Origin: a virus | IMG/VR virus record: IMGVR_UViG_3300029983_000015 | Coordinates: 1-64,000 of that record | DNA: 64,000 nucleotides | Strand: one strand, 5' to 3' | Shown: positions 315 to 63,812 of the stretch, in pieces | Layout: the number at the start of each line of letters is the position of its first letter | Numbering within the stretch: the first letter of the stretch is position 1 | Position numbers and translations under genes: made by a program | The notes under the pieces: generated by a model | Told to the model about the DNA's origin: nothing | What the model saw: the letters and a program-made list of their open reading frames with translations, nothing else | The model's database searches: none

Positions 315-899
315 ATGAAATATTTAAGATTATTTGAAAGATTGGTAAAAGAACCACCATTTATATCATCAGCAAGAAAAGGAAGTACTAATGCAGTAAA
401 ACAAGCATTAAAAGATGGTGAAGATGTTAATATGAAAGATTCAGATGAAAAAACAGCATTGATGCACGCTGTAAAATTTCCATTTGTTGTTGATGCATTG
501 ATTGAAGGTAAAGCAGATGTTAATGAGAAAGATAGAAATGGTATTACTGCATTGATGATGGCTTCTACCCCAACAGTTATAAATAAATTATTAAATGCTA
601 AAGCAGATGTAAATATGCAAGATATAAATGGTGAAACTGCAATAATGAGATATTTGTCTTGCTTTTATGATTCTGGTACATTTATTTCAATATTAGAAAA
701 ATTTTTAAAATCTGGATTAAATCTTGATATTAAGAATAATGAAGGTGAGAATTTTTATGATTTAATGATGGGATTTAAGGAATATAATAGTCATAAACAA
801 GATTATATAAATGATATTGAAATATACATAAACAATAAATTTCCAAAATATAAAAAAGATTTTGATTTAAAAACTGATATAAATAAATTCAATGTTTAA
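315..899 (+). CDS. Ankyrin-repeat protein with N-tag and KFN C-tag
   Basis: About 194 residues from the ATG at 315, chosen over an upstream in-frame ATG at 249 because it places the shared motif MKYLRLFERL at the N-terminus. The middle (roughly residues 20-130) holds three to four ankyrin repeats with the usual DxxGxTALMxA core and D-V-N turns. It ends NKFNV. Ankyrin repeats are protein-binding modules, so the likely role is contact with a host or phage protein. The N-tag suggests packaging in the head by analogy with T4 internal proteins; that is inference. A hairpin terminator follows directly. Confidence 0.75.
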   Translation: MKYLRLFERLVKEPPFISSARKGSTNAVKQALKDGEDVNMKDSDEKTALMHAVKFPFVVDALIEGKADVNEKDRNGITALMMASTPTVINKLLNAKADVNMQDINGETAIMRYLSCFYDSGTFISILEKFLKSGLNLDIKNNEGENFYDLMMGFKEYNSHKQDYINDIEIYINNKFPKYKKDFDLKTDINKFNV

Positions 900-904
900 T
901 TATT

Positions 905-934
905 AAATAAAGCCTGTAAAAAATACAGGTTTTA
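905..934. terminator. Bidirectional hairpin terminator
   Basis: CCTGTA/TACAGG stem flanked by A-run and T-run, between convergent genes ending at 899 (+) and 932 (-). Confidence 0.6.
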
Positions 935-1177
935 TTCGTTTATAATAATCATATTAGTTTGAGAAATAGGTAATCTAGCAACAGGAACAACTGAATATCT
1001 ACCACTTGTTGCAGTGTTTATTTCCTTTTTTTGCATAAATTCATAATAACCTTCTCTTACAGAAACTGTACTAATATCAATAAAAGAATATTCTGATATT
1101 ATAAGTTCTTTATCAATTGATAATCCGTTATATAAAGTTGTTGTTTTTTCCGATGTATTGAATATTAATGTTTGCAT
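932..1177 (-). CDS. Hypothetical protein, 81 aa
   Basis: Not recognised. A small protein without obvious membrane segment or cysteines, with beta-type alternating residues (LIFNTSEKTTTLYNGLSI). It sits alone on the minus strand, convergent with the ankyrin gene and divergent from the tagged run starting at 1258. It carries neither of the two terminal tags. Confidence 0.55.
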   Translation of the reverse strand: MQTLIFNTSEKTTTLYNGLSIDKELIISEYSFIDISTVSVREGYYEFMQKKEINTATSGRYSVVPVARLPISQTNMIIINE

Positions 1178-1257
1178 TTTTTATTTTTTATATAAAAATA
1201 AAAAATAAAAGTTTTGTAATTATTTTTTTTTATATATATTGAAAATTCATCATATAA

Positions 1258-1599
1258 ATGAAATATATTAAAAAATTTGAAATTAACATTGAAGATTCAA
1301 TAAAAAAAATTCATGAAGATATGGCTAGAAAGATATTAGATTATAAAAAATATTATGATAAGTATGTTATATTTGAATATCAGAAGGATTTTTATCTTGC
1401 TAAATTTATTTTAATTGATGTGTTTGATCGTGTTGTTCTTGAAATTTATGAATATGATTTCACTAATTTTATTTTTAGCACAAAAAGGACTGATATATTA
1501 ACAATTAATGAAATTAATGTGGTATCATCATATGATAGATTAGAAAATGCTAAAAATTCGTATGTATTATTATTAGACACAAAAAAATTCAATGTATGA
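1258..1599 (+). CDS. N-tag/KFN-tag small protein, 113 aa
   Basis: Begins MKYIKKFEIN and ends KKFNV. The body (about residues 40-100) is beta-rich with the pattern YVIFEYQKDFYLAKFILIDV, possibly a small barrel; no family recognised. First gene of a run to 4595. Its stop overlaps the next ATG by 4 nt, so translation is probably coupled. A TATATATA box about 20 nt upstream resembles a T4-type late promoter. Confidence 0.65.
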   Translation: MKYIKKFEINIEDSIKKIHEDMARKILDYKKYYDKYVIFEYQKDFYLAKFILIDVFDRVVLEIYEYDFTNFIFSTKRTDILTINEINVVSSYDRLENAKNSYVLLLDTKKFNV

Positions 1600-1931
1600 T
1601 AACTATATTTGAAAAATATAATACACCAGATTTAAGAAGAGTTGATGATATTTTGATGTGTATAAAAAATTATAAAGGTAAAGTTATAAATTTTGAAAAA
1701 GACAAAAGTTATAAAGTTTGCGGTTTTTATGGTAGTCCACAAGATGCAATAGAAAAATATAATATTTTAGATTATTTACCAATTGAATGCATTGATAAAG
1801 TCGTTATGTTTGATGATAAAAAAAATAAAATAGAGTTTAATGTGAATAGTTATTATAATCACTTACCAGATTTTTTAGATTATTTTTATGTTCCAGAATT
1901 TACAAATGATACACACAAATATAATATATAA
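1596..1931 (+). CDS. N-tag/KFN-tag small protein, 111 aa
   Basis: Begins MITIFEKYNT and ends HKYNI, an aromatic variant of the KFN end. Body resembles a small SH3-like barrel (GKVINFEKDKSYKVCGFYG) but no family is recognised. Overlaps its upstream neighbour by 4 nt; the next gene starts 3 nt after its stop. Confidence 0.65.
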   Translation: MITIFEKYNTPDLRRVDDILMCIKNYKGKVINFEKDKSYKVCGFYGSPQDAIEKYNILDYLPIECIDKVVMFDDKKNKIEFNVNSYYNHLPDFLDYFYVPEFTNDTHKYNI

Positions 1932-1934
1932 TTA

Positions 1935-2753
1935 ATGAGAAAAATATTTGAATTTAAAGTTTTTGATATACTACAAGACAAAGAAAATGTTAAGTTTTTA
2001 GATAAAGTAAAAAAAGAAAATTTTGAATTATATACAAAATTTTTAAATTTAATTGGTAATAAAGGACTTGATGTAGCTAAGCAAAAATATGAAGAATTTG
2101 ATCCTGAATACAAAAAAAGGATGAATGAAATAGAGAAAGAAATAAATAAAAATCTTAAAAAAATAGATAATAAGAAATATAAAGAAAAAGAGAATGAAAG
2201 AATATTAAATGAATATAAATCTGAAATTGAAGAAATTGAAGAAATTATTTATTCATCTGAATTATATAATGTTGATTCTTATATTTATAATGATAAAAAT
2301 ATATCAAAATACTTTAATGATTCTAATATAAAAACTAAGAATTCTAATGATTTTGATAAGTTGTTAAAATCTCCAAGTAATTTAGGCTATGAATTATGGG
2401 AATTTTTTCACACTGATACTATATTATATGAACTAAATAAAATAAATATTTATAATAAAAATACTTGGATATTGAAAATTCATCAGTATTACAATTTAAG
2501 TACAAAAGAATTAAAATATTCAATACATTTTGATACTGATATAATTGATGAGTATTATACACCAAATATAGATAAATCTAAAAATCCAAAATTTATAAAT
2601 TATAGAAATTCAAATATCAATAAACTAAGTAAATACACTAGAATTGATATTGATATGGTTTATGAAACACTAGGTAAATATTCAAATATGCTAAGTGATA
2701 AATATTATAATGATTGGAAAGTTATAAATGATACTAGCAAATATAATATATAA
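1935..2753 (+). CDS. N-tag/KFN-tag protein, 272 aa
   Basis: Begins MRKIFEFKVF and ends SKYNI. Residues about 50-105 are a highly charged predicted helix/coiled coil rich in K and E; the second half is a mixed alpha/beta region with many Y, N and D residues. No family recognised. Part of the head-to-tail operon from 1258. Confidence 0.65.
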   Translation: MRKIFEFKVFDILQDKENVKFLDKVKKENFELYTKFLNLIGNKGLDVAKQKYEEFDPEYKKRMNEIEKEINKNLKKIDNKKYKEKENERILNEYKSEIEEIEEIIYSSELYNVDSYIYNDKNISKYFNDSNIKTKNSNDFDKLLKSPSNLGYELWEFFHTDTILYELNKINIYNKNTWILKIHQYYNLSTKELKYSIHFDTDIIDEYYTPNIDKSKNPKFINYRNSNINKLSKYTRIDIDMVYETLGKYSNMLSDKYYNDWKVINDTSKYNI

Positions 2754-2856: not shown

Positions 2857-4014
2857 ATGATAACAAAGTTTGAAAAATTTAAATTATTTGAAAGCTCAGA
2901 TAGTGCAAAATATGATTTGATTCATGATTTTTTAGATGATAGCTATATATATGATTATTATGATGAACATTATTTGAGTGATTATGATCAAAGTGATGTC
3001 GTAGATATAATAGAATCTAATCCAAATATAATATCAGGTGTTTTTGATAATGATAAATATATAAAAAGTATTATTAGAGATAGTATGAATAATCAAAATA
3101 TTGGAGATTTCGATGCATATGAATATAAAGAATATATTAATAATCATTTAACAAGAGAAAAAGAAAACAAAATAATTGAGTTATATTATGATAATAATGA
3201 TGATGAAAATATGATTATTAAAACAGAATATGATGGTATAGTATCGATTTCAGACGAAGACGGAGTAAAAACGGTTATGATTACTGAAGATGATACTACT
3301 GAGGAATATGAAATTCCTGATAATTTTAATATAGTAGTTGAAGAAGGTGATGAAATTAATTATAATACTATTATTGCAAGAAATGATGATATTGAATATG
3401 ATTCTGATATGATAGATGACTTAGATTCTGATCAATTAAAAGATATAATAACAGATGAAAATGAAGAAGGTGAGTTTTTAGAAGAAACTATTACAAAAAG
3501 ATATGAGGATAAAACTTTCATAGAAATAATGGAAGAAGAGAAAAGTGTAGATTCTTATGAAGAATTAATTGATAATATGACTCCTAAAAAATTTTATGAA
3601 TATTATAGCTCTTTTATTGATATTGATAAACTTGTAAAAAATTATAAAAAATATGAAGATTCTGATAGTAAATATGATTGGGTGGAGTCTAAAATTCCAG
3701 ATAGTATAGAAATTCAACATTATCTGATGGACAATTCTAAGGATTCAAATAATCTTACTTTGCTGCTATTTGAAATATTTGAAGATAAAGGTGATCACTC
3801 AGATGATATATCAGATGAGTATGAATTTCAAAAAAGATATATAGAAGAATATATAAAGGAAAATGGATATGATGATAGTACAGAAGATGAAAAAGGAGAT
3901 TTGATAGCTGAAGCTTTAAAAGATTTGAACTCCAATTTTGTATTAGATTCTCAAATAAAAACAGAATTTAATAAATATATGTTTATTGTAGATTCTGATA
4001 AATTTAATATGTAA
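2857..4014 (+). CDS. Acidic N-tag/KFN-tag protein, 385 aa
   Basis: Begins MITKFEKFKLFESSD and ends SDKFNM. The largest tagged protein here and strongly acidic (frequent DD, EE, DE runs) over most of its length. LFE followed by S at the tag end would fit a T4 gp21-type (I/L)xE prohead-protease site; this is inference. An acidic body could mimic DNA or act as head core filler, as in acidic T4 core proteins, but no homology is visible. Starts about 100 nt after the previous gene and 2 nt before the next. Confidence 0.65.
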   Translation: MITKFEKFKLFESSDSAKYDLIHDFLDDSYIYDYYDEHYLSDYDQSDVVDIIESNPNIISGVFDNDKYIKSIIRDSMNNQNIGDFDAYEYKEYINNHLTREKENKIIELYYDNNDDENMIIKTEYDGIVSISDEDGVKTVMITEDDTTEEYEIPDNFNIVVEEGDEINYNTIIARNDDIEYDSDMIDDLDSDQLKDIITDENEEGEFLEETITKRYEDKTFIEIMEEEKSVDSYEELIDNMTPKKFYEYYSSFIDIDKLVKNYKKYEDSDSKYDWVESKIPDSIEIQHYLMDNSKDSNNLTLLLFEIFEDKGDHSDDISDEYEFQKRYIEEYIKENGYDDSTEDEKGDLIAEALKDLNSNFVLDSQIKTEFNKYMFIVDSDKFNM

Positions 4015-4016: not shown

Positions 4017-4595
4017 ATGATAACAAATTTTAATATTTTTGAAAAAATTGATTATTATGATAATAATGGTAACCTTATATATTCGAATAATAATGGTGAT
4101 GTTATTAGATCTAATAAACCGAATGTTAATAATTATAGTGATGAATTTTGGAAATTTATAACTGTCGCTAATTGGAATAAAATAATTAAAACTAAGGATG
4201 AATTTGAAAATAAAGATAAAGAAGAAGAATTAAAATTGAAAATAAGAGTATTCAAAAATTTTGAATACGATACCATTATAAATTTTAGAAAGGAATATGA
4301 TAAGTTAACAGAAGAACTTTATTTATATTTTAAACCTACTTGGTTAGATAATAAATATTCAACCTTTATGCCATCAGATGACGGATATTTTGACTTAATA
4401 AGTTCTGTTATAGGAAAAGGAGAATTTTTTATTAAGAGATGTATAAATAATCACAAACTATTTGCTGATATGGCTAAAAATAATGAATATGTAGAAAACT
4501 TTGGATATATTTTTCAAACCACTTGGAAAGAATATGATGAAATTAATACTAAATATTATCCTTTATATAGAGATTCTAAAAAATTTAATTTATAA
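4017..4595 (+). CDS. N-tag/KFN-tag protein, 192 aa
   Basis: Begins MITNFNIFEKID and ends SKKFNL. The body is mixed charged with aromatic-rich stretches; no domain recognised. Last gene of the first tagged run and followed immediately by a strong hairpin terminator, so here the KFN codons are not serving as the leader of a downstream gene. Confidence 0.65.
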   Translation: MITNFNIFEKIDYYDNNGNLIYSNNNGDVIRSNKPNVNNYSDEFWKFITVANWNKIIKTKDEFENKDKEEELKLKIRVFKNFEYDTIINFRKEYDKLTEELYLYFKPTWLDNKYSTFMPSDDGYFDLISSVIGKGEFFIKRCINNHKLFADMAKNNEYVENFGYIFQTTWKEYDEINTKYYPLYRDSKKFNL

Positions 4596-10121: not shown

Positions 10122-10201
10122 GATTATTAATTTATTTTTATTATGTTATATATAAAAATAAATTAACACATTTTTAATAAATAATATTCAAATAATTTAT
10201 A

Positions 10202-10209
10202 TATAAATA
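10202..10209 (+). promoter_or_regulatory. T4-type late promoter box TATAAATA
   Basis: Exact TATAAATA, 12 nt before the ATG at 10221 that opens the second KFN-tag operon. The exact match to the T4 late consensus is the main evidence. Confidence 0.5.
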
Positions 10210-10220: not shown

Positions 10221-10490
10221 ATGAAACATCTGAAAACATTTGAAAATAAACCAAATGAGCCAAAAGTAGGAGATTACGCTATTTTTGACTGCCCTATAAC
10301 ATTTGATGGAAAAATGCACAATCTATATAATTATACTGTTCATAAAATTATAAATGTATATTGGGATTCATATGAAACAAATCTTGGATTTAGGATAAAT
10401 AAATCTTATCTGTTAGATTTTTCAGGTAGCAAAAAAAGATTACAGCAATTTGTTAAAATTAAAAAAAATACAGATAAATTTAATATATGA
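10221..10490 (+). CDS. N-tag/KFN-tag SH3-like small protein, 89 aa
   Basis: Begins MKHLKTFENKP and ends DKFNI. The body resembles a small SH3-like barrel (VGDYAIFDCP, YTVHKIINVYWDSYETNLGF), similar in outline to the GD-box proteins of the minus-strand clusters but carrying the KFN tag instead of RKxKL. First gene of a five-gene operon joined by 4-nt ATGA overlaps. Confidence 0.65.
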   Translation: MKHLKTFENKPNEPKVGDYAIFDCPITFDGKMHNLYNYTVHKIINVYWDSYETNLGFRINKSYLLDFSGSKKRLQQFVKIKKNTDKFNI

Positions 10491-11104
10491 AACATCTAAA
10501 AATGTTTGAAACATTTACAAATAAAATAACAATTGGAATTGATATTGATGGTACAATATGTGATTTTGTCAATGCATACAACACCTTATATAAAAAATAC
10601 TTTCCAGATAAAGAAATAACTCAGGATCAAAATTGGCATTGGTATGAAACAATGGACTATAATGGTGAATCATCTAAAACTTGGTTTGATAATAAAAAAT
10701 CCGAAGTTTTTGATATTGCACAACCATATAAAGGAGCAGTTGATACAATTAATAATATATACGACTTCGTAAAAACTTATGGATTTACTTTAAATATTGT
10801 AACTAAACAACCTACAGAAGAATCAAAAGAATCAGCTAAAAAATGGTTAGATCATTATGGATTCAAATATGATGATATTATTTTTGCTAACTCATCAATG
10901 GATAAATGGAAGTATGCTGATATATTAGTAGATGATTCTCAAAAAGTAATTGGAAGCAAACCATTAAGTAAAGTGTCAATTAAAATTGAACATCCTCATA
11001 ACACAGAAATTGAAGGAGATTTTAATATAATGGAAATTAGTAATTTGACAATTGATATAATGAAAAAAGCAATTTCAAAATTAAAAAATAAAACTACGGT
11101 GTGA
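10487..11104 (+). CDS. HAD-family 5'(3')-deoxyribonucleotidase-like protein with N-tag
   Basis: 205 residues. Begins with the shared tag MKHLKMFETF and then ITIGIDIDGTICDF, HAD motif I with catalytic D19 and D21. TKQPTEES fits motif II, and ADILVDDSQKVI fits the acidic motif IV. Overall like 5' nucleotidase, deoxy (NT5C-type) proteins, which dephosphorylate dNMPs. It lacks a KFN end (ends NKTTV), the exception in its operon. Its tag, if it directs packaging, would deliver the enzyme with the DNA; alternatively it acts in phage nucleotide metabolism. Confidence 0.75.
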   Translation: MKHLKMFETFTNKITIGIDIDGTICDFVNAYNTLYKKYFPDKEITQDQNWHWYETMDYNGESSKTWFDNKKSEVFDIAQPYKGAVDTINNIYDFVKTYGFTLNIVTKQPTEESKESAKKWLDHYGFKYDDIIFANSSMDKWKYADILVDDSQKVIGSKPLSKVSIKIEHPHNTEIEGDFNIMEISNLTIDIMKKAISKLKNKTTV

Positions 11105-11547
11105 AATATATAAAAATGTTTGAATCATATGAAAAATTATCTGATGCTTGTCGTGAAGGAGATTTGAATGTAGTAATAGAATTCATAGAAAATAAAAAAG
11201 TTGATGTGAATAATATAAATAAATATGGATATTCATCATTAATATTAGCTGCAGATAATAATAGAATAGATATAGTTAAATATTTAATTGAAAAAGGTGC
11301 TGATGTTAACTATCAAGATGCCTATGAAAGAACAGCATTACATTATGCTGCTATGAGAAAGAATATTAATATCATTAAAATATTAATAGAAGCAGGGTCA
11401 AATTGGAACTTAAAAGACGATAATGACGAGGATTTTTTATTCTATATTAAAAATACCAAAGTTTACATGGATATGATAATGTCTGAATATACAGAACAAT
11501 ATGAAAAATATCTATCAATAAAAAATTCAGAAAAATTTAATCTATGA
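11101..11547 (+). CDS. Ankyrin-repeat protein with N-tag and KFN C-tag
   Basis: 148 residues. Begins MKYIKMFESYEKL and ends EKFNL. Residues about 15-110 form three clear ankyrin repeats (GYSSLILAADNNRIDIVKYL and ERTALHYAAMRKNINIIKIL, with a D-V-N turn between). Second well-formed ankyrin protein with the same tag pair in this window. Probably a protein-binding effector; host target unknown. 4-nt overlaps on both sides. Confidence 0.8.
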   Translation: MKYIKMFESYEKLSDACREGDLNVVIEFIENKKVDVNNINKYGYSSLILAADNNRIDIVKYLIEKGADVNYQDAYERTALHYAAMRKNINIIKILIEAGSNWNLKDDNDEDFLFYIKNTKVYMDMIMSEYTEQYEKYLSIKNSEKFNL

Positions 11548-11975
11548 AAAGTTTTGATCAATATATTAATGAAAATAGAGCATATGGAAAAATAGGCAAA
11601 TCTAATGGTATGGATTTTAATTTTTTTATATTATTAGAAAATGTAACAGAAGAAAAACAATATGAAGCATTTGATGAATTTAATAAATATGCAAATTTAG
11701 ATCAACATACTATAAAAAATTTATTGATAAATAAATCCGATATTGAATATTATAAAGATTCTGATATCAAATGGATATGGTATATTAAAGTATATGAAAG
11801 TTGGAGTGATTCAGAAAATCTAAGAGATACAATAGATTTAGTTAAAATGAGATCATTTGATATTCGTAGTCATGATAATGTTATTATTCCATTAGATGAA
11901 TTTTTGAAAATTGGATTAAAAGGTGCAGAAGAATTATTTAAAATAAAAAAAGACGCAAATAAATTTAATATATGA
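11544..11975 (+). CDS. Tagged protein with T4-CTS-like N-terminus, 143 aa
   Basis: Begins MKSFDQYINENRA, closely similar in spacing to the T4 internal-protein capsid-targeting sequence MKTYQEFIAE (Met-Lys, aromatic, Gln, aromatic, Ile, Glu). INE followed by N could be a prohead protease site. Ends NKFNI. The body is mixed alpha/beta without recognised domain. Inferred internal head protein. Confidence 0.7.
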   Translation: MKSFDQYINENRAYGKIGKSNGMDFNFFILLENVTEEKQYEAFDEFNKYANLDQHTIKNLLINKSDIEYYKDSDIKWIWYIKVYESWSDSENLRDTIDLVKMRSFDIRSHDNVIIPLDEFLKIGLKGAEELFKIKKDANKFNI

Positions 11976-12400
11976 AAAAATATGACCAATTCATAAATGA
12001 ATCAAAAGATATATGGCAAAGAGAACCAACAAAAGATGAAACATATGGTGAGATTTTTTATATAAAAAGGCCAGAATTTCATACTGGTGTTTATGATGGT
12101 GATATAGTTAAATTAGATAAAGAATATATTGAAAAATTAGACTCAGTATTATATAATAGACATAATGAAAAAAAGACGACTGACAAATTTACTGATAATG
12201 ATTATAGTAAAGAATATGTGCTAGTTAATTATGAATGGTATTATGGGTATGCATTAAGAAATTCACTATCTGATATAGATGAACACGATTTCTTTGCATG
12301 GGTTCCAACAGGATATATTAGACACCTAACAGACGAAGAAATGAAAGATTATCTATATAGAAAAAATATAGTAGATACTACAAAGAAATTTAATCTATGA
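11972..12400 (+). CDS. Tagged protein with T4-CTS-like N-terminus, 142 aa
   Basis: Begins MKKYDQFINESKD, the best match in this window to the T4 capsid-targeting sequence; INE followed by S fits the gp21 (I/L)xE cleavage rule. Ends KKFNL. Body contains an aromatic-rich segment (VNYEWYYGYALRNSL, FFAWVPTGYIRHLTDEEM). Unknown activity. Last gene of the operon, followed by a terminator. Confidence 0.7.
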   Translation: MKKYDQFINESKDIWQREPTKDETYGEIFYIKRPEFHTGVYDGDIVKLDKEYIEKLDSVLYNRHNEKKTTDKFTDNDYSKEYVLVNYEWYYGYALRNSLSDIDEHDFFAWVPTGYIRHLTDEEMKDYLYRKNIVDTTKKFNL

Positions 12401-12450: not shown

Positions 12451-12451
12451 G

Positions 12452-12541
12452 TATTCCAGGCGGGATTTGGACCCGCAGTGTGTCATTAACTGTATTAGAT
12501 CCTAAATCTAACGCGTCTCAACCAAGTTTCGCCACTGGAAC
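12452..12541 (-). tRNA. tRNA-Leu (anticodon TAG)
   Basis: Acceptor GTTCCAG/CTGGAAT with discriminator A and no encoded CCA. Anticodon stem TTAGA/TCTAA around loop TTTAGGA gives TAG, reading CUA. The long variable arm fits leucine; the T-arm (GCGGG/CCCGC) is intact. Confidence 0.85.
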
Positions 12542-12549
12542 ATTTTTTG

Positions 12550-12623
12550 TAACTGAGATGGGATTCGGACCCACAAAATTCACCTTTTGAGGATGACATG
12601 GTTACCAATTACATCACTCAGTC
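12550..12623 (-). tRNA. tRNA with anticodon CAA (isotype uncertain)
   Basis: 74 nt. Acceptor GACTGAG/CTCAGTT, anticodon stem TCATC/GGTGA around loop CTCAAAA, giving CAA, which reads the leucine codon UUG. The variable loop is only about 5 nt, whereas bacterial tRNA-Leu has a long arm, so charging identity is doubtful. CCA is not encoded. Confidence 0.7.
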
Positions 12624-12630
12624 ATTATTG

Positions 12631-12716
12631 TACTGATGGTGGGACTTGAACCCACATTCTTACTTTGTTCAGAAACAGTTTCTTAGACTGCCGCGTATTC
12701 ATTTCGCCACATCAGC
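12631..12716 (-). tRNA. tRNA-Leu (anticodon AAG)
   Basis: Acceptor GCTGATG/CATCAGT, anticodon stem GCAGT/ACTGT around loop CTAAGAA gives AAG (CUU). Long variable arm, as expected for leucine. A34 would need modification to read other CUN codons. Confidence 0.8.
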
Positions 12717-12726
12717 ATTTTTTTTG

Positions 12727-12813
12727 TATTCCTGGTCGGACTTGAACCGACACGGATATTACTATCCACAAAATTTTAAGTCTTGCATGTGCTACCAATT
12801 TCATCACAGGAAC
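12727..12813 (-). tRNA. tRNA-Leu (anticodon TAA)
   Basis: Acceptor GTTCCTG/CAGGAAT, anticodon stem CAAGA/TTTTG around loop CTTAAAA gives TAA (UUA). Long variable arm. UUA is a dominant leucine codon in the genes of this window. Confidence 0.85.
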
Positions 12814-12818
12814 ATTTG

Positions 12819-12903
12819 TACTCTGAGCGGGATTCGGACCCGCATCGTTTCTAATGTAAAGGTTTTTAAGACCTTCGTGTATCGCCAATTCCACCATCAG
12901 AGC
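12819..12903 (-). tRNA. tRNA-Leu (anticodon TAA), second copy
   Basis: Acceptor GCTCTGA/TCAGAGT, anticodon stem AAGGT/ACCTT around loop CTTAAAA gives TAA. Long variable arm. Sequence differs widely from the TAA tRNA at 12727, so it is not a simple recent duplication. Confidence 0.85.
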
Positions 12904-13169: not shown

Positions 13170-13526
13170 TTAATTATTTAGGCTAACTTCATCAATACCT
13201 ATTGATTTCAAATATATTAGGCATTCAAGTTCAGTTTTAAATTTTATTGGTTTGTATGAATTATTATAATCTCCTTTGATTTTTCTTATTTTTTTAAAGT
13301 TTTTATAGAAATCTTCATTATCTACTTTATATATTACGTCATGATCATCAAAATAAGGATACTCATAATTAAAATAATTGTAATTAAATAATGAGACGTA
13401 TATTTGTTTATTTCTTGTTTCTACGTTACATAGCAATCTCACATTTTCGTATAATTTGTCAGACATTTGTTCATGTACAGTTTTCATTTCTCTTGATAAT
13501 ATTATATCTTTGCTATAATCAATCAT
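13170..13526 (-). CDS. Hypothetical protein, 118 aa
   Basis: Not recognised. N-terminal helix followed by a beta region rich in Tyr/Phe/Asp (YNYFNYEYPYFDDHDVIYKV). Last gene of the minus run that begins near 15408; start overlaps the end of the preceding gene by 4 nt. No RKxKL end. Confidence 0.6.
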   Translation of the reverse strand: MIDYSKDIILSREMKTVHEQMSDKLYENVRLLCNVETRNKQIYVSLFNYNYFNYEYPYFDDHDVIYKVDNEDFYKNFKKIRKIKGDYNNSYKPIKFKTELECLIYLKSIGIDEVSLNN

Positions 13527-13738
13527 ATGTTATTGAGATTTTTTAATTTTTCTTTTCTTATATTAATATTAATTAATTTATCTTTCAATATATACAATTC
13601 TCTTTTTAACTCAATAATTTCATTAATAGCTTCTATATGATTACAATTAATTCCATAATTGCTATTGACAATAATTTTAAGTCCGAATAATGAAGTTTCT
13701 ATTTTAATTATTCTATTGTAAATATCTTTTGATGTCAT
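13523..13738 (-). CDS. RKxKL-tagged small protein, paralogue of next gene (71 aa)
   Basis: Begins MTSKDIYNRI and shares FGLKI with its neighbour at 13713, so the two are tandem duplicates. Predicted mostly helical. Ends RKEKLKNLNNI, a clean copy of the second C-terminal tag. Function unknown. Confidence 0.65.
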   Translation of the reverse strand: MTSKDIYNRIIKIETSLFGLKIIVNSNYGINCNHIEAINEIIELKRELYILKDKLININIRKEKLKNLNNI

Positions 13739-13943
13739 TTAATTCTTTTAATTTTTCTTTTCTTATTCTATTTAATTTTAAGTTTTTTTCAAGTTTTTTT
13801 ATTTCCTCTTCAAATTCAACTTTGCTATTATATGATTCCAAATATTCATCATTACTAAGTGAATAACGATTCATAAGTATTTTCAATCCGAAGATTCTAT
13901 TATCAATGAATAATATTCTATTGCATATATCTTTTGATGTCAT
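13713..13943 (-). CDS. RKxKL-tagged small protein, paralogue (76 aa)
   Basis: Begins MTSKDICNRI, duplicate of the gene at 13523, helical. The tag RKEKLKELNDI is followed by five more residues (KRYLQ) that overlap the start of the next gene by 26 nt, as if the original stop had been lost. Confidence 0.65.
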   Translation of the reverse strand: MTSKDICNRILFIDNRIFGLKILMNRYSLSNDEYLESYNSKVEFEEEIKKLEKNLKLNRIRKEKLKELNDIKRYLQ

Positions 13944-14275
13944 GATAGATTATTTAATTTATCTCTTCTTATTGATTTTTTGCTTACGTATATTGGATAT
14001 GTGATTGCGTTATATGATTTAATCATTGGATTTAGTATATTCTTAATATCAGAAAAATTTTCAACAAAAAAATTAATTAATGTATTTTCTTTGTGTATTT
14101 CTAATACATTTTCAAGAGGTTTATAAAAACATGTAATATCAACTGGGTTGAAATCATAATCATTTGAAGAATCAAATTCTATTACATAATAATAATCATT
14201 TGGATCATTTGTCTCATTTGCATATATGCATTCATATTTCCAATTCCAATTTCCATCATCATAATTTTTATTCAT
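13940..14275 (-). CDS. RKxKL-tagged hypothetical protein, 111 aa
   Basis: Acidic, beta-rich N-terminal half (NWNWKYECIY, YYYVIEFDSSNDYDF), helical C-terminal half, ending IRRDKLNNLS, a variant of the second tag. Starts 1 nt before the stop of the upstream gene region; part of the 13170-15408 run. No family recognised. Confidence 0.6.
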   Translation of the reverse strand: MNKNYDDGNWNWKYECIYANETNDPNDYYYVIEFDSSNDYDFNPVDITCFYKPLENVLEIHKENTLINFFVENFSDIKNILNPMIKSYNAITYPIYVSKKSIRRDKLNNLS

Positions 14276-14276
14276 C

Positions 14277-14618
14277 TCAAATTATTTCTCCTCTTTTTAT
14301 TTCTGCTCTTCTATTTATCAAATCTACTTTTTCTTTAATGTTATTTCGTACTTCATTCTTAGTGAATATTTCAGATTCAATATGACCATATATTTCAAAT
14401 AATAATTTTGGCTCAGTTTCTACTATTATAGGTCCAAAAAATAAATATTTATTATATTTATTATGAGTAGTGCCATAGTAAAAATATGTTTTATTTCCGT
14501 ATTGGTTTTCACCTTGTTTATATTTGTATGTTTTGCCTTCATATGAAATTTCTTTATAGTCTGGCTCTTCATAGTCTTTGAATATAAAGGTTTTATTGTT
14601 CAAAGTTTTAGTTATCAT
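14277..14618 (-). CDS. Hypothetical protein, 113 aa
   Basis: Beta-rich N-terminal part (ITKTLNNKTFIFKDYEEPDY, KTYFYYGTTHNKYNKYLFFG), helical end INRRAEIKRGEII, perhaps a decayed form of the RKxKL tag. No family recognised. Confidence 0.55.
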   Translation of the reverse strand: MITKTLNNKTFIFKDYEEPDYKEISYEGKTYKYKQGENQYGNKTYFYYGTTHNKYNKYLFFGPIIVETEPKLLFEIYGHIESEIFTKNEVRNNIKEKVDLINRRAEIKRGEII

Positions 14619-14619
14619 A

Positions 14620-14844
14620 TTATAAGTTATTAGTGTCTAAAATAGCTTCTGCTACATGAAAATAATCAACTGATGTCATATCAACTTCAAATGTTGTTTT
14701 ATCATCTCTGTAGTATTTTGATTTACCAAGAAACCTACGTACTCCAATAAAGTCTTTTTTTATTTTAGATTCAAAAACATCACAATCAGGATAAAGTAAT
14801 TTTACTTTAACTAATAATTCTTGTGTTATTTTATATTTACTCAT
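14620..14844 (-). CDS. Hypothetical protein, 74 aa
   Basis: Starts MSKYKITQELLVKVKLLYPD. Mixed charged with no clear domain and no tag. One nt from the next gene in the same run. Confidence 0.55.
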   Translation of the reverse strand: MSKYKITQELLVKVKLLYPDCDVFESKIKKDFIGVRRFLGKSKYYRDDKTTFEVDMTSVDYFHVAEAILDTNNL

Positions 14845-14938
14845 ATTTTTAATTTTTAATTTATTCTGATATCATAATATAGTTCGGTAAAATCACATAA
14901 AATTATATGATTTTACGATTTCTTCTTCCATGATAAAT

Positions 14939-15238
14939 TTAATCAAAATTTGGTTTTGTGAATATTTCTGCTTCAAATCCTAATTTCTGTAATTTTATTA
15001 CCATTTCTTCTGGTGTGACTGGGGTTTCTCCGTAGTAGTACATATCGCCTTCACCAGGTTCTTCAATTTCCAAATCATCTAATATTGGAAAATCCTCAGT
15101 AAAATGTTGATCATACATACATTCATCTTTTTTTATCCAAACTGATATACTTAATGGACATGTCCATTCATCCATATCTTTCAACCACTCTACTGTATTT
15201 GATACTTTGAGCGTAAAATCACATTTTTTTACTTTCAT
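14939..15238 (-). CDS. Hypothetical acidic protein, 99 aa
   Basis: Begins MKVKKCDFTLKVSNTVEWLK; acidic middle (PILDDLEIEEPGEGDMYYYG). Not recognised. Its ATG overlaps the stop of a 57-residue membrane protein (ATGA), so the two are coupled. Confidence 0.6.
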   Translation of the reverse strand: MKVKKCDFTLKVSNTVEWLKDMDEWTCPLSISVWIKKDECMYDQHFTEDFPILDDLEIEEPGEGDMYYYGETPVTPEEMVIKLQKLGFEAEIFTKPNFD

Positions 15239-15408
15239 AATTTATTTTTATATTTTTTGTATGATTCTGTTGAAATGTCACCGTTATTAAACATTTCATC
15301 AAGAATATCTTTCTTTCCGTCATTAGAGATTTTATATAATTGTGATATTAATACAACTATAACAAAAATAATAAGTAATCCTACATATATACCAGTTTGA
15401 AAATCCAT
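15235..15408 (-). CDS. SHOCT-like single-pass membrane protein, 57 aa
   Basis: ATG at 15406-15408 reading left, TGA at 15235-15237. Residues about 5-24 are a hydrophobic span (GIYVGLLIIFVIVVLISQL), and the C-terminal part (KDILDEMFNNGDISTESYKK) looks like a SHOCT motif, a short helical module often at protein ends. A TATCTTTG promoter box lies about 50 nt upstream. Function unknown, probably inner membrane. Confidence 0.6.
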   Translation of the reverse strand: MDFQTGIYVGLLIIFVIVVLISQLYKISNDGKKDILDEMFNNGDISTESYKKYKNKL

Positions 15409-15454
15409 AATTTATAAGTTTTTAAAAATTGTTTTTATATGATTATATTAAATA

Positions 15455-15462
15455 CAAAGATA
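15455..15462 (-). promoter_or_regulatory. TATCTTTG promoter -7 box
   Basis: Minus-strand TATCTTTG directly behind a terminator; a clear -33 element is masked by the terminator hairpin. Would start the 13170-15408 run. Confidence 0.45.
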
Positions 15463-15464
15463 AA

Positions 15465-15493
15465 AAAAAATCCTTGCGTGTGCAAGGATTTTT
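15465..15493 (-). terminator. Terminator of the SPFH operon
   Basis: AATCCTTGC/GCAAGGATT stem followed on the minus strand by nine T residues, just after the gene ending at 15516. Confidence 0.8.
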
Positions 15494-15515
15494 CAATTTA
15501 TTTTAATATTATTTT

Positions 15516-15836
15516 TTAGACTTCTTCTTTTACATCTTCTTTTAATTCATTTGAATCATCTTCCATGACATTATCTAATTCAACTTCTTTTTTTGGTTTC
15601 CAAATTAAGTAGAATAAGCTTAAAGAGCCAAGGATAGAAACACCATATATAACATCAATAAAATTGAATGCTGTTTTTTGTGTTTTTAATGTATAATATG
15701 AATTATCATCAGTGAGTTGATTAGCTGCTACTGCAGAATAATCTTGTGTTGTTTTATAAACAACTAATTTGTATGATAATCCAATAGAAATTAATAGAAG
15801 AACAACTAACAATGATTTGATTATTTTGTTTCTCAT
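15516..15836 (-). CDS. Two-pass membrane protein next to SPFH protein, 106 aa
   Basis: Residues about 7-26 (IIKSLLVVLLLISIGLSYKL) and about 60-78 (VIYGVSILGSLSLFYLIW) are hydrophobic spans; the tail is strongly acidic (VMEDDSNELKEDVKEEV). It begins where the SPFH lipoprotein gene ends (1-nt overlap), so it is probably its partner in the envelope. No family recognised. Confidence 0.65.
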   Translation of the reverse strand: MRNKIIKSLLVVLLLISIGLSYKLVVYKTTQDYSAVAANQLTDDNSYYTLKTQKTAFNFIDVIYGVSILGSLSLFYLIWKPKKEVELDNVMEDDSNELKEDVKEEV

Positions 15837-16798
15837 TATCGTTTTGATTTTGTTGAAGTGATAGCATTCATACTCTTCAATCCATATAATTCAAGCATTG
15901 AAAAATTTCCACCAGCGATTGTAAGATTGTTTGGGATTTGAAGCTTACCATTTTTTACTGCATCTGCAAATGCTAATTTTATAGCAATGTCTGCATCAAG
16001 ATGACTCTGTGCTTCAATTGATGCTTTTGCTTTGGCAAACTTATTAGCTGCAATTACTTTATTCTCAGCAGTTTTAATGTTCATTTCAGATGAATACTTT
16101 TCATTAATTGCTGCTTGAATACTAGGATTAGAATAAGTAAATTGTCCAGCAGAACCAATGTTCATAATTTTGATACCATATAATGCAAAGTGTTCTGTTA
16201 CATCTTTTGACATTTGAGAGAAAATAATACTTCTATCGTTCTGTCCTCCTGTTAAGTTTCTATCACCAAATTGTGTAGTTAAACTTTTTTGAACATATCC
16301 TCGAACATCAGTGTCCATCAAGTCAGCTAAAGATCTTCCACTATATGAATATAAGAATAATGTGGACCAATCTTCTGGAATAGATGCTGTTACTGTTATA
16401 CAAACTGCAAATCCAATTGATTCTTTAGATTCTACTTCAATTGCGTCATTTGATGCTTTATTTGATCCACCACCTGCACCATTCCATTCACGTGTAACAG
16501 GAGTACGATCTACAATAATAACTCTAACAGATGGAATCCATTCACCACTATTTGACATCCTGCCTGTCTTGTGCCATTGTGTTGGAATGTAAATACGTTT
16601 TGCAACTACTTTGTTTTGTTCGAGATAAGTTTGGGATTTTAATTTACTTTGATTAACTTGAGTTCCATTTTCTAATGGAATTACATAAGCAGTTTCATTT
16701 GGTTTAATCTCCTGATACTTTTGTACCTGATAAGGTTTCATACAAGATGACATTACTGCCAATACAATCACACATACTAAAATCAATTGTTTTTTCAT
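15836..16798 (-). CDS. SPFH/prohibitin-like lipoprotein
   Basis: 320 residues. N-terminal lipoprotein signal (MKKQLILVCVIVLAVMSSC, Cys at about 19), so it is exported and lipid-anchored. The body resembles an SPFH/band-7 domain: beta-rich region followed by GYVQKSLTTQF, then a long Ala/Lys/Glu helix (MNIKTAENKVIAANKFAKAK). SPFH proteins form membrane scaffolds and often regulate membrane proteases. A host-type promoter lies upstream. It may shield the infected cell envelope or bind FtsH-like proteases; this is inference. Confidence 0.7.
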   Translation of the reverse strand: MKKQLILVCVIVLAVMSSCMKPYQVQKYQEIKPNETAYVIPLENGTQVNQSKLKSQTYLEQNKVVAKRIYIPTQWHKTGRMSNSGEWIPSVRVIIVDRTPVTREWNGAGGGSNKASNDAIEVESKESIGFAVCITVTASIPEDWSTLFLYSYSGRSLADLMDTDVRGYVQKSLTTQFGDRNLTGGQNDRSIIFSQMSKDVTEHFALYGIKIMNIGSAGQFTYSNPSIQAAINEKYSSEMNIKTAENKVIAANKFAKAKASIEAQSHLDADIAIKLAFADAVKNGKLQIPNNLTIAGGNFSMLELYGLKSMNAITSTKSKR

Positions 16799-24974: not shown

Positions 24975-25775
24975 TTATATTTTAACTTTTACTTGTTCTG
25001 TTTTATTGGTGACAGAATTAGAAATGCTATAAAATTCAGGAAAGTCTAATGATTTCTCATTACTAATGAATGAATCTATTGTACCAGGAGAAATTTCTTT
25101 AACGTAATTTGAAAATTTGTTAGTTGCATCTTGTATAGCTAAATGTCTTGTTTTCATTGTTGGAGTAAAATAAAACTCATCTTTGAATGCTTGAGACATT
25201 AATCCAATAAAATAACAGCAGTCTAAATAATTTTCTATTTTATCAGTTGATTCAAATTTGAATAATTTATTATATTTTTCTATATTTGTTATCATTATAT
25301 TTTTATCATCTATGTCTAATACATTATCTATTATATATCTTACTGATGAATGTATAGTATTAGGTTCATGTCCTCTTGTGGTAATGATAGCAAATAATCT
25401 ACCTTCTTTTAGAGTTGTTAAAAATGACTCCCATGATGGACCAAAATTTTTATTCTTTATTGATTTTTTAATATCATCAACAAGTGAATTATCTAATCTT
25501 GGACCGTTGTCTCCAAATTCAGAAAATGTATATTTAGTGTCTGATTTCCATTCATTATTATCAATATAATTATCTGGATATTCAAGTCTTATTTTAGAAA
25601 AATCTTGAATTGATATATCTTTATTTATCCATTTACCATTTTCAAAATGTTGAAAGTGTAAAGGAGTATTCATGATAAGTAAATTATCATCAATATCAAA
25701 TATTGAATATATAGAGTTTTCTATACTCTGTTGTTCTAAAATAAATGAATTCCAATCTTTGACTTTTTTGCTCAT
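24975..25775 (-). CDS. HAD-like protein with T4-CTS-like N-terminus, 266 aa
   Basis: IFDIDDNLL at residues 25-33 is HAD motif I (Asp27, Asp29) and FAIITTRGHEP near residue 135 fits motif II with Thr. The N-terminus KVKDWNSFILEQQS resembles the head-targeting motif (aromatic, SFILE), and ILE followed by Q could be a processing site. HAD enzymes are phosphatases or nucleotidases; the substrate is not evident. It overlaps the next gene by 1 nt, and that gene carries a KFN tag, so this pair is a minus-strand outpost of the first tag system. Confidence 0.65.
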   Translation of the reverse strand: MSKKVKDWNSFILEQQSIENSIYSIFDIDDNLLIMNTPLHFQHFENGKWINKDISIQDFSKIRLEYPDNYIDNNEWKSDTKYTFSEFGDNGPRLDNSLVDDIKKSIKNKNFGPSWESFLTTLKEGRLFAIITTRGHEPNTIHSSVRYIIDNVLDIDDKNIMITNIEKYNKLFKFESTDKIENYLDCCYFIGLMSQAFKDEFYFTPTMKTRHLAIQDATNKFSNYVKEISPGTIDSFISNEKSLDFPEFYSISNSVTNKTEQVKVKI

Positions 25776-26104
25776 TATAAATTGAATTTTTTTGTAGATT
25801 TATATAATTCTGTATCTTTCATATATTCAACTAAATCATTATATTCTTCATCAGTTATATTTATTGTTCCCTTTTGATAATTTTTTTTCAAAGTGTAATT
25901 TATATTATATCCTCCTGGTTTAAGTGAACTTTTATGTATACTATCTGATTTTATAACAAAATAAGGTGAATTTTGAACTTTGTGGTTTTTTCTAAATTCA
26001 TCATTAGTATTTACATAATCATCAACTACTCTCATCATATTATCATAATATCTATCTACTTGATATTTCTTGCCATAATATTCATCAAAACTATATACTG
26101 TCAT
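25775..26104 (-). CDS. KFN-tagged protein on the minus strand, 109 aa
   Basis: Begins MTVYSFDEYYGKK and ends TKKFNL. Helical N-terminus with many Tyr and Asp; then basic and beta segments. Only KFN-tag gene on the minus strand in this window. Upstream sequence contains a TATATATAA box. Unknown function, same inferred fate as the other tagged proteins. Confidence 0.65.
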   Translation of the reverse strand: MTVYSFDEYYGKKYQVDRYYDNMMRVVDDYVNTNDEFRKNHKVQNSPYFVIKSDSIHKSSLKPGGYNINYTLKKNYQKGTINITDEEYNDLVEYMKDTELYKSTKKFNL

Positions 26105-42619: not shown

Positions 42620-43090
42620 ATGAAAAATATTAAAACATTTGAAACTTGGAAAGACAATATTATAGATGATAAATTATTCACTAGTGGCAAAGCTAAATAT
42701 GATCCAACAGTATTTGGTGGAATTATAAAATATAAATCAGGAAATTCTGAGCCATATTACTTCGCAAGAATACAGAAAAAAGGCGGTTTTTTTATATGTA
42801 AAATTTTCAAAAAAAATAAAGATGGAGAAAGTGTAAGATTGAGAAATAAAAAGAAAGATGATTTGAAAGATGCACACAATTATGTTAGAGAATTTATAAA
42901 TCAAAGATTAAAGAGAGATGAAGAAAAAGGAGAGAGTAATGATTCTTTCTTTGAGCCTAAAAAAAGACATCATAATACAGACAATGATAAATTTTTTCCT
43001 GATGAATATAATGACAATAAATCTTTTGAACCTTATTCACAACCTGCAATAGAACCTCAAAAAAGAAAAACTATTATTAGAAGATTTTAA
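42620..43090 (+). CDS. N-tagged basic protein, 156 aa
   Basis: Begins MKNIKTFETWKDNI; no KFN end (ends KTIIRRF). The middle (EPYYFARIQKKGGFFICKIF, then NKDGESVRLRNKKKDDLKDA) resembles a small AP2/integrase-like or beta-sheet DNA-binding layout, low certainty; the C-terminal third is Pro/Lys/Asp-rich and probably disordered. Candidate internal head protein that might bind DNA. Confidence 0.6.
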   Translation: MKNIKTFETWKDNIIDDKLFTSGKAKYDPTVFGGIIKYKSGNSEPYYFARIQKKGGFFICKIFKKNKDGESVRLRNKKKDDLKDAHNYVREFINQRLKRDEEKGESNDSFFEPKKRHHNTDNDKFFPDEYNDNKSFEPYSQPAIEPQKRKTIIRRF

Positions 43091-62062: not shown

Positions 62063-62074
62063 TTATATATATAC
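62063..62074 (+). promoter_or_regulatory. Late-promoter-like TATATATA box
   Basis: TTATATATATAC 5-16 nt before the chosen ATG at 62079. Confidence 0.4.
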
Positions 62075-62078
62075 CTAC

Positions 62079-62501
62079 ATGATAACAGAATTCAAAATAT
62101 TTGAGAACTCAGAAGATAAGATTACAATAATTTTAAATGACGTAATAGATTATTTCGATGGTGATGATGACTCAATAAGAAATTTCATATTTAAATTACT
62201 TGATTATAATGATAACAATATAGTTGAATTTGATTGTAAAAAATGTACCATGATGATTAATGGAGTAACCAATTTTATGCATTCAAATAAACATCACAAA
62301 GGTGTAATACGAGGTAGATCATATGGATTTAGTAATGAATTTCATTATATATATTTAACAATAATATTAAAAAGAATAAAATATGATCATGATGTAGACA
62401 CAAATTCTCCAACTACTATTTATGGCTATGTTCCTGATGAAATTAAAAAAATTGTTAATGATATAAATATAAAAAGAGAAGCAAAAAAATTTAATATATG
62501 A
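62079..62501 (+). CDS. N-tag/KFN-tag protein, 140 aa
   Basis: ATG at 62079 chosen over the in-frame one at 62052, since it puts MITEFKIFENSE at the N-terminus and leaves the promoter box upstream. Ends KKFNI. Paralogue of the next gene: shared ITIILNDVIDYFDGD/TTLILNDLMIYYNGN and DTNSPTTIYGYV/NVNSPFTIYGNI. Body unknown. IFE followed by N at the tag end could be a processing site. Confidence 0.7.
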   Translation: MITEFKIFENSEDKITIILNDVIDYFDGDDDSIRNFIFKLLDYNDNNIVEFDCKKCTMMINGVTNFMHSNKHHKGVIRGRSYGFSNEFHYIYLTIILKRIKYDHDVDTNSPTTIYGYVPDEIKKIVNDINIKREAKKFNI

Positions 62502-62935
62502 TAACAAATTTTAAAGTATTTGAGAATGTAGAAAATGAAACAACATTAATTTTAAATGATTTGATGATTTATTATAATGGAAACCAGAATAAAATAAAAA
62601 AATTTATTACAGATTTGTTAGCTCCTGGTAAAGTAGTTAAATTTAATTTTAATTATGGTTATGATAATAGTTTATTTGAATTCATACCAATTGTAGAAGG
62701 ATGTACAGGTATTATTGATAAAGTTCATGAATGTACTGTTGGATATAAAGGAACACTACAACACAAAGAAAAAGAATTTGTGATATTATCATTAATATTA
62801 AAAAATTATCCTAATATTGAATATAGAATTAATGTCAATTCACCATTTACTATTTATGGAAATATAACAGAAAAACAAAAAATTATTATTGAAGAATTGA
62901 ATTTAATAAGAAATGCGAACAAATTTAACTTGTAA
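62498..62935 (+). CDS. N-tag/KFN-tag protein, paralogue, 145 aa
   Basis: Begins MITNFKVFENVE and ends NKFNL, with AAC and TTG codons where most copies use AAT and TTA/ATA, so the peptide rather than the DNA is kept. Overlaps its paralogue by 4 nt. Function unknown. Confidence 0.7.
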   Translation: MITNFKVFENVENETTLILNDLMIYYNGNQNKIKKFITDLLAPGKVVKFNFNYGYDNSLFEFIPIVEGCTGIIDKVHECTVGYKGTLQHKEKEFVILSLILKNYPNIEYRINVNSPFTIYGNITEKQKIIIEELNLIRNANKFNL

Positions 62936-63026
62936 TAATATAAAAAAATATAATAATATGCAATTTATTAATATTTTGTGAGTATTTTTTATAATTTTGT
63001 AAATTGTACTTATAAACAAATTTAAT

Positions 63027-63458
63027 ATGATAGAAAAAAATAATATAGTCATAAAAATTAGCTCTGATACTGAAATTTTTATAAATAATTATGAAAAAAT
63101 ATATAAGAATAAATATGGTGAAAAAATAACTGATAATTACACATATAGAAATATACCAATTTCTTGTTATGATGAATTTTCTATGCTAATATTTATGTAT
63201 AAACATCCTGATGTCTGGAAAACAGAGGATAAAAAGAAAGATAAAAAAACTCAAAGAGAAATAAAAAAATATACATTAAATTCTATAATAACAAAAATAG
63301 AAAATACTCCTAAATTATATTATGAAATAGAAGAATATACGAATAAAACATCAATGGATTGGAAGAGTTCATATTTCATTTTTTCATTCTATTTATTTCT
63401 AAATGCGGTAAATTATACTCCAACATGGATAAAATCTACTATGAAATTTAATTTATAA
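63027..63458 (+). CDS. KFN-tagged protein, 143 aa
   Basis: Begins MIEKNNIVIKISSDTEIFIN, with no clear N-tag; ends MKFNL. The C-terminal half has an aromatic-rich helix (SSYFIFSFYLFLNAVNYTPT). Unknown. The only KFN protein here without a recognisable N-tag. Confidence 0.6.
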   Translation: MIEKNNIVIKISSDTEIFINNYEKIYKNKYGEKITDNYTYRNIPISCYDEFSMLIFMYKHPDVWKTEDKKKDKKTQREIKKYTLNSIITKIENTPKLYYEIEEYTNKTSMDWKSSYFIFSFYLFLNAVNYTPTWIKSTMKFNL

Positions 63459-63473
63459 AAATAATATTAGAAT

Positions 63474-63812
63474 GTGATAATAGAAAGATTTAATATATTT
63501 AAAAACAAAGAAGAAAAATATTTCTTGATTTTACACAGACCAAATGAAGGAGATTATTCTATATTATATAAACTTACTCACGGAATTGAGGATTTTATTA
63601 CTACTGATGAAATAAATTCAAGTAATATAAATATTCTAAAAGGGAAAAATAATAATATTGAAAGTTTTCCTACAATTGAATTAGCCAATGATAGATTAGA
63701 TAATATACTACATAAATATAGTGATTCTCAATGGACTAATAGAAATAATTGGATGATAAAAACTTTTGACGAGTTGAATTTTTTATTCACTACAAATAAA
63801 TTTAATTTATAA
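63474..63812 (+). CDS. N-tag/KFN-tag protein, GTG start, 112 aa
   Basis: GTG at 63474 gives MIIERFNIFKNK (start read as Met); no ATG fits better. Ends NKFNL. Paralogue of the partial gene at 63815 (KYFLILHRPNEGDYSILYKL against KYLLILNRPTKGDKLILMNL). Unknown function. Confidence 0.65.
   Translation: MIIERFNIFKNKEEKYFLILHRPNEGDYSILYKLTHGIEDFITTDEINSSNINILKGKNNNIESFPTIELANDRLDNILHKYSDSQWTNRNNWMIKTFDELNFLFTTNKFNL

Follow-up and report, generated by a model that had tools for sequence, protein, structure and literature searches.

Encapsulin cargo consists of unrelated proteins that carry a short C-terminal loading peptide and are taken into a shell of HK97 fold. In phage T4, according to the available part of a published account, residues 4 and 7 of the N-terminal capsid-targeting sequence (CTS) serve mainly in targeting and residues 8 and 10 in processing (PMC9026906), and the available part of a study of phage SPN3US describes an identical N-terminus for the proteins gp53 and gp54 (PMC5694885). 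The DNA analysed here (the window) comprises 64,000 bases, positions 1 to 64,000 of the 94,695-base virus record IMGVR_UViG_3300029983_000015, and has a G+C content of 23%. It encodes a set of proteins that end in K[FY]N[ILVM], most of which begin with a motif that has the spacing of the T4 CTS. We propose that these tagged proteins are internal head proteins of a huge phage of T4 type and that their two ends serve in docking, a reading to which we would give a probability of about 0.6.

Open reading frames (ORFs) come from a simple script that took the first ATG and discarded overlaps, and gene numbers are therefore approximate. A 235-kb record, G001, represents the same phage as the window, one protein of 717 residues being 100% identical, and the 402 genes of a composite (P1, made of G000 and the non-overlapping stretches of G001; hereafter the composite) were compared with those of relatives. 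The 125-kb record G002 shares 181 reciprocal best pairs with the composite at 73% median identity, and G069 shares 61 pairs at 83%.

Two end peptides on unrelated bodies

K[FY]N[ILVM] forms the free C-terminus of 15 ORFs in the window, one of them on the minus strand; an earlier note, made from the window sequence, had counted at least fourteen in the same places. The composite has this tag on 40 of 402 genes, compared with 0.08 expected from the rate of the four-residue string inside proteins, and G002 has it on 19 of 233 (0.09 expected). A sixth of the genes of the 330-kb record G048 are tagged (103/601), and further counts are 18/143 in G069, 14/198 in G055 and 10/63 in G045. The exact tag is found on two of 241 genes in G056 and on none of 100 in G004, numbers that rise to four and nine if one extra residue is allowed, the G004 variant being KYN[IL][IL], one residue longer. 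Inside proteins the string occurs near the rate set by composition (14 observed against 17.5 expected in the composite, 29 against 26.5 in G048), so the excess is confined to the free C-end. The earlier note had held that occurrence at random rates in other proteins of the genome would speak against it; over the genes of the composite the C-tag is in excess, at the C-end only, and goes with the N-motif. In an open scan of the last seven residues, K(-4)F(-3)N(-2) came out on top for the composite, G002, G048 and G069, as did KYN for G055 and, one residue further in, for G004; neither was top-ranked in G056 or in phage LR756501. The extended end is approximately a hydrophobic residue at -10, a lysine-rich position at -8, [DNS] at -7, [TAS] at -6 and [NK] at -5, followed by K, F or Y, N and I or L. 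A chance origin of the tag is rejected by the excess in the composite and G002, by the open scan and by the near-composition internal rate. Both partners are tagged in 14 of 16 ortholog pairs of G002 (61% mean identity) and in 13 of 14 of G069 (71%), and the remaining three pairs retain near-tags; the K and N identities are set by the selection of pairs, and the usable result is the presence of the tag in both partners. The tag reaches far, because G048 shares just 20 reciprocal best pairs with the composite, at a median identity of 34%. In the open-licence literature searched, parts of which were available, neither KFN nor the DPYGEExW tag discussed below is described for a phage, and the letters KFN occur once, in a paper on a yeast peptide.

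Another possibility is that the ends are features of nucleic acid, kept for translational coupling in operons with ATGA overlaps or as recombination ends between which bodies are swapped. Of 200 tagged genes with a scored neighbour, 113 run into another tagged gene within five bases on the same strand. The last codon of the tag is ATA for 89% of isoleucines, compared with 46% genome-wide, and TTA likewise fits an overlapping ATGA; the lysine codon of the tag is also less variable than elsewhere (AAG 3% against 11% genome-wide). The phenylalanine and asparagine codons point the other way, their variation being equal to or greater than that of the genome as a whole (TTC 21% against 16%; AAC 36% against 13%). 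Furthermore, 29 of the 200 neighbours are on the opposite strand and 21 more are over 40 bases away, and the tag of G004 is one residue longer. A DNA-level element is thus disfavoured and we regard it as very improbable. Since the F and N codons vary and neighbours may lie on the opposite strand, it is the peptide that is kept, as the earlier note had proposed. Its argument from codon variation holds for F and N and fails for K, while its observation that the tag persists before a terminator agrees with a terminator-like hairpin at 906-936 that follows the first gene (315..899).

The N-terminal forms MK[YH][ILV]Kx[FY]E, MI[TK]xFxxFE and MKxxxQ[FY]INE can be written as one pattern, a hydrophobic or aromatic residue, two residues, an aromatic residue and Glu one to three positions on. 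As M.{2,3}[FYILVMW]..[FY].{0,2}E, the form used for the association counts, it is present on 154 of the 217 C-tagged proteins of eight genome sets (a total that includes the G004 and G056 ends with one extra residue allowed) and on 104 of 1,764 others. In the composite a strict form is found on 25 of 40 C-tagged genes and 13 of 362 others (p 3e-20), so that the proposed pairing of the two motifs is borne out. The spacing is that of the T4 CTS, with an exact fit of the two long forms encoded at 11544 and 11972. Long forms also contain [IL]xE, and A_141 has it at the junction with shell-protein sequence described below. We consider it very likely that the N-end is a capsid-targeting propeptide of T4 type. 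One N-tagged gene without the C-tag has a weak ART-PolyVal-like match (E 3e-5, below the Pfam cut-off). Other N-terminal likenesses were seen in G001, where the minus strand at G001:150733-155255 encodes a row of three proteins of AAA+/vWA type (DUF2201, AAA) whose N-ends resemble the CTS, and eleven proteins at G001:216811-233462 begin with a MxKEELxxWF-like stretch.

After the first 12 and last 14 residues had been trimmed, the 217 C-tagged proteins fell into 111 body clusters, in agreement with the earlier view that the bodies are unrelated. The two largest clusters (41 proteins, mostly SH3-like, and 23, many of them ankyrin-like) indicate that duplication is part of the story, and all tagged genes might be diverged copies of one ancestor of which the ends alone are recognisable. 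With 111 clusters this is hardly credible, and a Pfam scan of G048 proteins gave 11 ankyrin matches, two leucine-rich repeat (LRR) matches, one ExoX-C-like and one GIY-YIG-like match, which cannot be one fold; paralogy alone is rejected on both counts. The scan covered 107 of 116 candidates, the nine omitted being doubtful and matched by the N-pattern only, and genes that cross the end of a stretch lay outside the candidate list. An alignment of 39 SH3-like proteins (37 of the 41 cluster members and two others; 26% mean column identity) fixes K and N of the C-end by selection and has an invariant Glu8 in the N-end, a residue also present in the four cluster members outside the alignment. In the structure predicted for an SH3-like protein (mean predicted local distance difference test score, pLDDT, 79.5), scores fall below 50 over residues 1-10 and are 66 and 56 for the last two blocks; such low-confidence ends speak against tags that belong to the body fold, an argument that is weaker for the ankyrin model considered below. 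One SH3-like protein searched against named phages at E 0.1 gave no match, and a fold search with it gave none at E 0.001, the weak top matches being ribosomal proteins and MazF.

Head genes, an upstream motif and the proposed packaging of tagged proteins

Tagged relatives encode a head module. Comparison with PHROGs identified a portal (1e-58), a head maturation protease (8e-31), a major head protein (2e-22) and a late sigma factor (3e-5), with portal, protease and head closure in G069 and the major head protein in G056; G001 encodes a tail sheath (E 6e-75). The S77 prohead protease family PF03420 matched three of 23 records, including G069, with one match over the cut-off; 22 of the 23 had been chosen for a tandem-tag DNA pattern, in which a KFN end overlaps a new N-tagged start. 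In G069_142, G056_102, W01_088 (LR756501) and W02_355 (LR756504) the protease is joined to a stretch that, by reading, is scaffold-like. The motif [FYILVM]xx[FY][ILV]xE is matched 13, 12, 14 and 12 times in these proteins, 10, 10, 12 and 10 of the matches, respectively, having a spacing of 14 residues, and the repeat unit (Y..Y[IVL]AE type) is spaced like the CTS. The KFN gene G069_141 directly precedes the protease gene. A prohead protease with a scaffold-like stretch of 14-residue Y..YIAE repeats is encoded at L261:13462-15807 and at L252:4886-7234.

Outside the window, on the minus strand at G000:87349-87741, A_141 joins the N-end MKKFDEFIKED to a shell-arm-like stretch. It aligns with the shell protein G056_103 from shell residue 46 (47% identity over 51 columns, E 6e-6), and D_001 likewise from residue 46 (51%, E 1e-7); in both, the Glu of IKE and the Glu of LNE are at most one residue apart. 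For G055_029 the alignment begins at residue 29 and pairs the two Glu. The N-end thus occupies the place of the shell protein's presumed propeptide. The shell-protein sequences at this junction are SLNE|N, QMNE|N (with M, not I or L, at P3) and QIHE|N, and by analogy with T4 the shell protein would be cut there. Small proteins that resemble pieces of the major shell protein were also seen (W01_389, W01_159, G055_103, G055_104 and G055_071), W01_159 ending in DPYGEEDWNN.

We propose that the tagged proteins would be made together with head and tail proteins and that the N-end (hydrophobic residue at 4, aromatic at 7 and Glu at 8-10, or shifted by one) would bind the prohead scaffold core. The S77 prohead protease would then cut after the N-end Glu, as with the T4 internal proteins, and the bodies would remain in the head until delivery alongside the DNA. 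A second docking signal would be provided by the free C-end K[FY]N[IL], with a reading partner that may differ between lineages. The tagged proteins are probably packed in the virus particle; from the sequences we infer their late expression, packaging, cleavage and delivery and the docking role of the C-tag. For a packaging or retention signal at the C-end taken by itself, we would put the odds somewhat short of even.

A possible sign of late expression is a promoter-like motif, [TA]ATATATA, scored 15-80 bases upstream, which we take as a candidate late promoter. It precedes 12 of 13 structural operon leaders and three of 13 leaders of replication and other non-structural genes. For several of the 25 structural genes this class was assigned from size, gene neighbourhood or homology to megaphages only; the 25 comprise these 13 leaders and 12 others, two with the motif, and the 20 non-structural genes comprise 13 leaders and seven others, none with it. 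Tagged leaders carry it in 49 of 71 cases, other leaders in 218 of 590 and tagged genes within operons in six of 174; single-base shuffles of the tagged upstream regions gave about 10 of 71, and over the wider range of 8-80 bases the motif precedes 35 of 43 C-tagged leaders. By operon class it is found before 47 of 75 KFN operons, 21 of 98 RK-type operons and one of five mixed ones. The RK type is defined by RKx[KR][LI] within the final 45 residues (59/402 genes in the composite, 73/601 in G048 and 32/368 in LR756504). This string never co-occurs with KFN (5.9 expected in the composite and 12.5 in G048), and the strict N-tag is present on none of the RK-type genes in the composite and on two in G048. 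From the zero overlap and the contrasts in N-tag and motif, the KFN and RK C-ends mark different gene classes. RK-type genes lie, among other places, on the minus strand at 13523-33387 of the window and at G001:161694-191900.

A number of observations weigh against packaging of the tagged proteins in the head. The gp21-like protease sought outside the window on the suggestion of the earlier note was found in the relative G069, and PF03420 found none in G001, an incomplete record that lacks the head module; queries with portal, shell and protease in the composite found only the A_141 fragment. G056 has a head module yet only four C-tagged genes in 241. Neither N-pattern tried matches 51 of the 217 C-tagged proteins, and 127 N-tagged proteins are without the C-tag. 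The earlier comparison with T4 capsid targeting is indirectly supported by the spacing, the head module of relatives, the shell-arm junction and the upstream motif that many tagged operons have in common with head and tail genes; the short form MKYxKxFE (Glu at 8) is without the I or L that the T4 IxE site has at P3. In the ankyrin model (93.5) both ends are at 73-74, which sets the tags apart from the fold less clearly. The number of proteins is also high, as T4 has four such internal proteins (PMC9026906) and the whole head of SPN3US has about 50 different proteins, not 100 internal ones (PMC7411985), as stated in the available parts of both sources. The upstream motif, initially recognised before tagged leaders, is AT-rich and also precedes 37% of other leaders. 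It lies 8-14 bases from the start in 17 of 43 C-tagged leaders and none of 13 structural leaders, and at 22-34 bases in only 11 of 43, compared with nine of 13. The overall strength of the packaging proposal is slightly lowered because the motif is nearer the start in many tagged genes than in structural ones.

Other candidate second tags and the possible role of the C-end

The tandem-tag pattern is present in at least 119 stretches of viral contigs, and the 80 matches listed span about 30 dataset identifiers. In a collection of bacterial and archaeal genomes it was found in one contig only, from a Clostridia metagenome-assembled genome (L287:1361-1395); this 18-kb contig is perhaps a mis-binned phage. 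A DNA pattern for KFN, which admits TGG and omits GTN, was counted at 44 loci (40 of 80 of ClpB type and four of nine of another set). The latter four stood clearly above the reversed control (16 against 1, 12 against 1, 15 against 4 and 15 against 6); G007 gave 27 against 13, many of them reading into TGG, and G004 5 against 4. Counts in other records were 18 against 8 (LR756502), 26 against 22 (LR756504) and 20 against 17 (LR745206), and in LR756501 the count did not exceed that of the reversed control (15 against 16).

LR756501 is a 735-kb phage, and a genome of that size is termed the largest phage genome described in the available part of its source (PMC7162821). The G069 portal is 64% and the G056 shell protein 57% identical to its counterpart there. 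In LR756501 the peptide DPYGEExW is repeated 103 times (control 0) with varying synonymous codons, and it is absent from nine other records tested. A lenient pattern found 42 copies in the first 400 kb, near the C-end, behind CTS-like N-ends or internal. As LR756501 repeats DPYGEExW instead of KFN, the second tag may be lineage-specific. We tentatively suggest a cargo system with two addresses, in which a scaffold-targeting propeptide would be combined with a lineage-specific second address, read by a co-evolving head or core partner, and which might load up to about 100 different proteins into one capsid. The lineage forms of this second address may be K[FY]N[IL]-COOH, KYN[IL][IL] in G004 and DPYGEExW in LR756501. 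In the first 200,000 bases of LR756502 (1-200000), a loose pattern found 45 ORFs that start with MK[HY]L, many continuing with YxxFES (YKIFES-type), and several carry an IKDILxELxDDGF-like stretch.

For the C-tag, the main rival is that the N-end is a capsid-targeting propeptide and the C-tag acts after delivery, as protection from host proteases or by directing the protein to a location or complex in the new host cell. Enrichment solely at the C-end is also the mark of degrons and sorting signals, the C-tag is absent from several N-tagged proteins, among them the HAD-type and ADP-ribosyltransferase-like ones, and related huge phages differ in the second peptide that they repeat. Nonetheless, tagging of 103 of 601 genes in G048 and of 111 body clusters is easier to reconcile with a shared carrier step than with a single host target, and we consider action after delivery unlikely, if worth keeping in view. 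It is more doubtful still that both tags direct proteins not to the capsid but to some other structure of the infected cell, for instance a compartment for replication or assembly. That DPYGEExW is also internal in LR756501 proteins suggests that a repeated address can be something other than a propeptide, and the different placement of the upstream motif in many tagged and structural genes would fit as well. Against such an address, the N-end has the T4 targeting spacing and precedes the shell-protein arm at the presumed cleavage site.

Tagged genes of the window and comparison with known systems

The tagged genes of the window are on the plus strand except where stated. The first (315..899; promoter-like motif at 281-288) encodes an ankyrin-like protein, by reading, with the ends MKYLRLFE and DINKFNV. 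It is followed by 1258..1599 (MKYIKKFE, DTKKFNV; motif at 1231-1238), 1596..1931 (MITIFEKYN, DTHKYNI) and 1935..2753 (MRKIFEFKVFD, DTSKYNI), by an acidic protein at 2857..4014 (MITKFEKFKLFE, DSDKFNM), before which no promoter-like motif was found, and by 4017..4595 (MITNFNIFE, DSKKFNL). The promoter-like motif TATATATA (10198..10205, plus strand) lies upstream of the operon at 10221-12400, which begins with an SH3-like protein (10221..10490; MKHLKTFE, NTDKFNI). The next gene (10487..11104; MKHLKMFE) encodes a HAD-type protein, by reading, without the KFN end, as the earlier note had recognised. It is followed by an ankyrin-like protein with a GTG start (11101..11547; MKYIKMFE, NSEKFNL) and by two proteins with the long T4-like N-form, MKSFDQYINE at 11544..11975 (C-end DANKFNI) and MKKYDQFINE at 11972..12400 (TTKKFNL). 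The minus-strand gene is 25775..26104 (MTVYSFDEYY, STKKFNL; motif at 26129-26136), and 42620..43090 carries the N-tag only (MKNIKTFE; motifs at 42578-42585 and 42606-42613). The last group comprises 62079..62501 (MITEFKIFE, EAKKFNI), with a motif near its start at 62064-62073, 62498..62935 (MITNFKVFE, NANKFNL), 63027..63458, which ends in STMKFNL and is without the N-tag present in its relative D_037 (MITNFKIFE), and 63474..63812, with a GTG start (MIIERFNIF, TTNKFNL). An array of five tRNA-Leu genes at 12451-12903 holds the sole tRNAs of the window.

If the packaging proposal is true, the end tags reveal from sequence alone which unassigned genes of huge phages are packaged, and a short C-terminal label would stand beside the known N-terminal one for loading large phage heads. 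Related phages with differing second tags would then show how such an address evolves. A short C-end peptide on unrelated proteins is also what distinguishes encapsulin cargo, a likeness by description rather than by comparison of sequences. The DarB protein of bacteriophage P1 resembles the tagged proteins in that an N-terminal signal directs an internal protein into the head (PMC9024508). It differs in being one large protein, in a phage that seems to be without a separate scaffold, and the available part of that source mentions no C-tag. The ejection proteins of SPN3US are likewise many, internal to the head, cut by the prohead protease and ejected (PMC5694885); their propeptides are mostly far longer than the T4 CTS, and no C-tag is mentioned in the available part of the source. 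Among CTS proteins, the sole precedent met for an event at the C-terminus is the processing of T4 Alt there by gp21, as described in the available part of PMC9026906. Alt is cut at its C-terminus, whereas the C-end logos have no conserved [IL]xE site before the KFN end. The larger records analysed here have 40 to 103 tagged genes, compared with four in T4 (PMC9026906, available part), and they differ further in the short N-form with Glu at 8 and no preceding I or L and in the second, C-terminal tag. As in IPI-III and Alt, whose CTS is cut by gp21 according to the same part of that source (PMC9026906), a short N-end of the same spacing stands on differing small proteins, the tagged relatives have a portal, protease and shell module of T4 type, and one member weakly resembles ADP-ribosyltransferases, the activity of T4 Alt.

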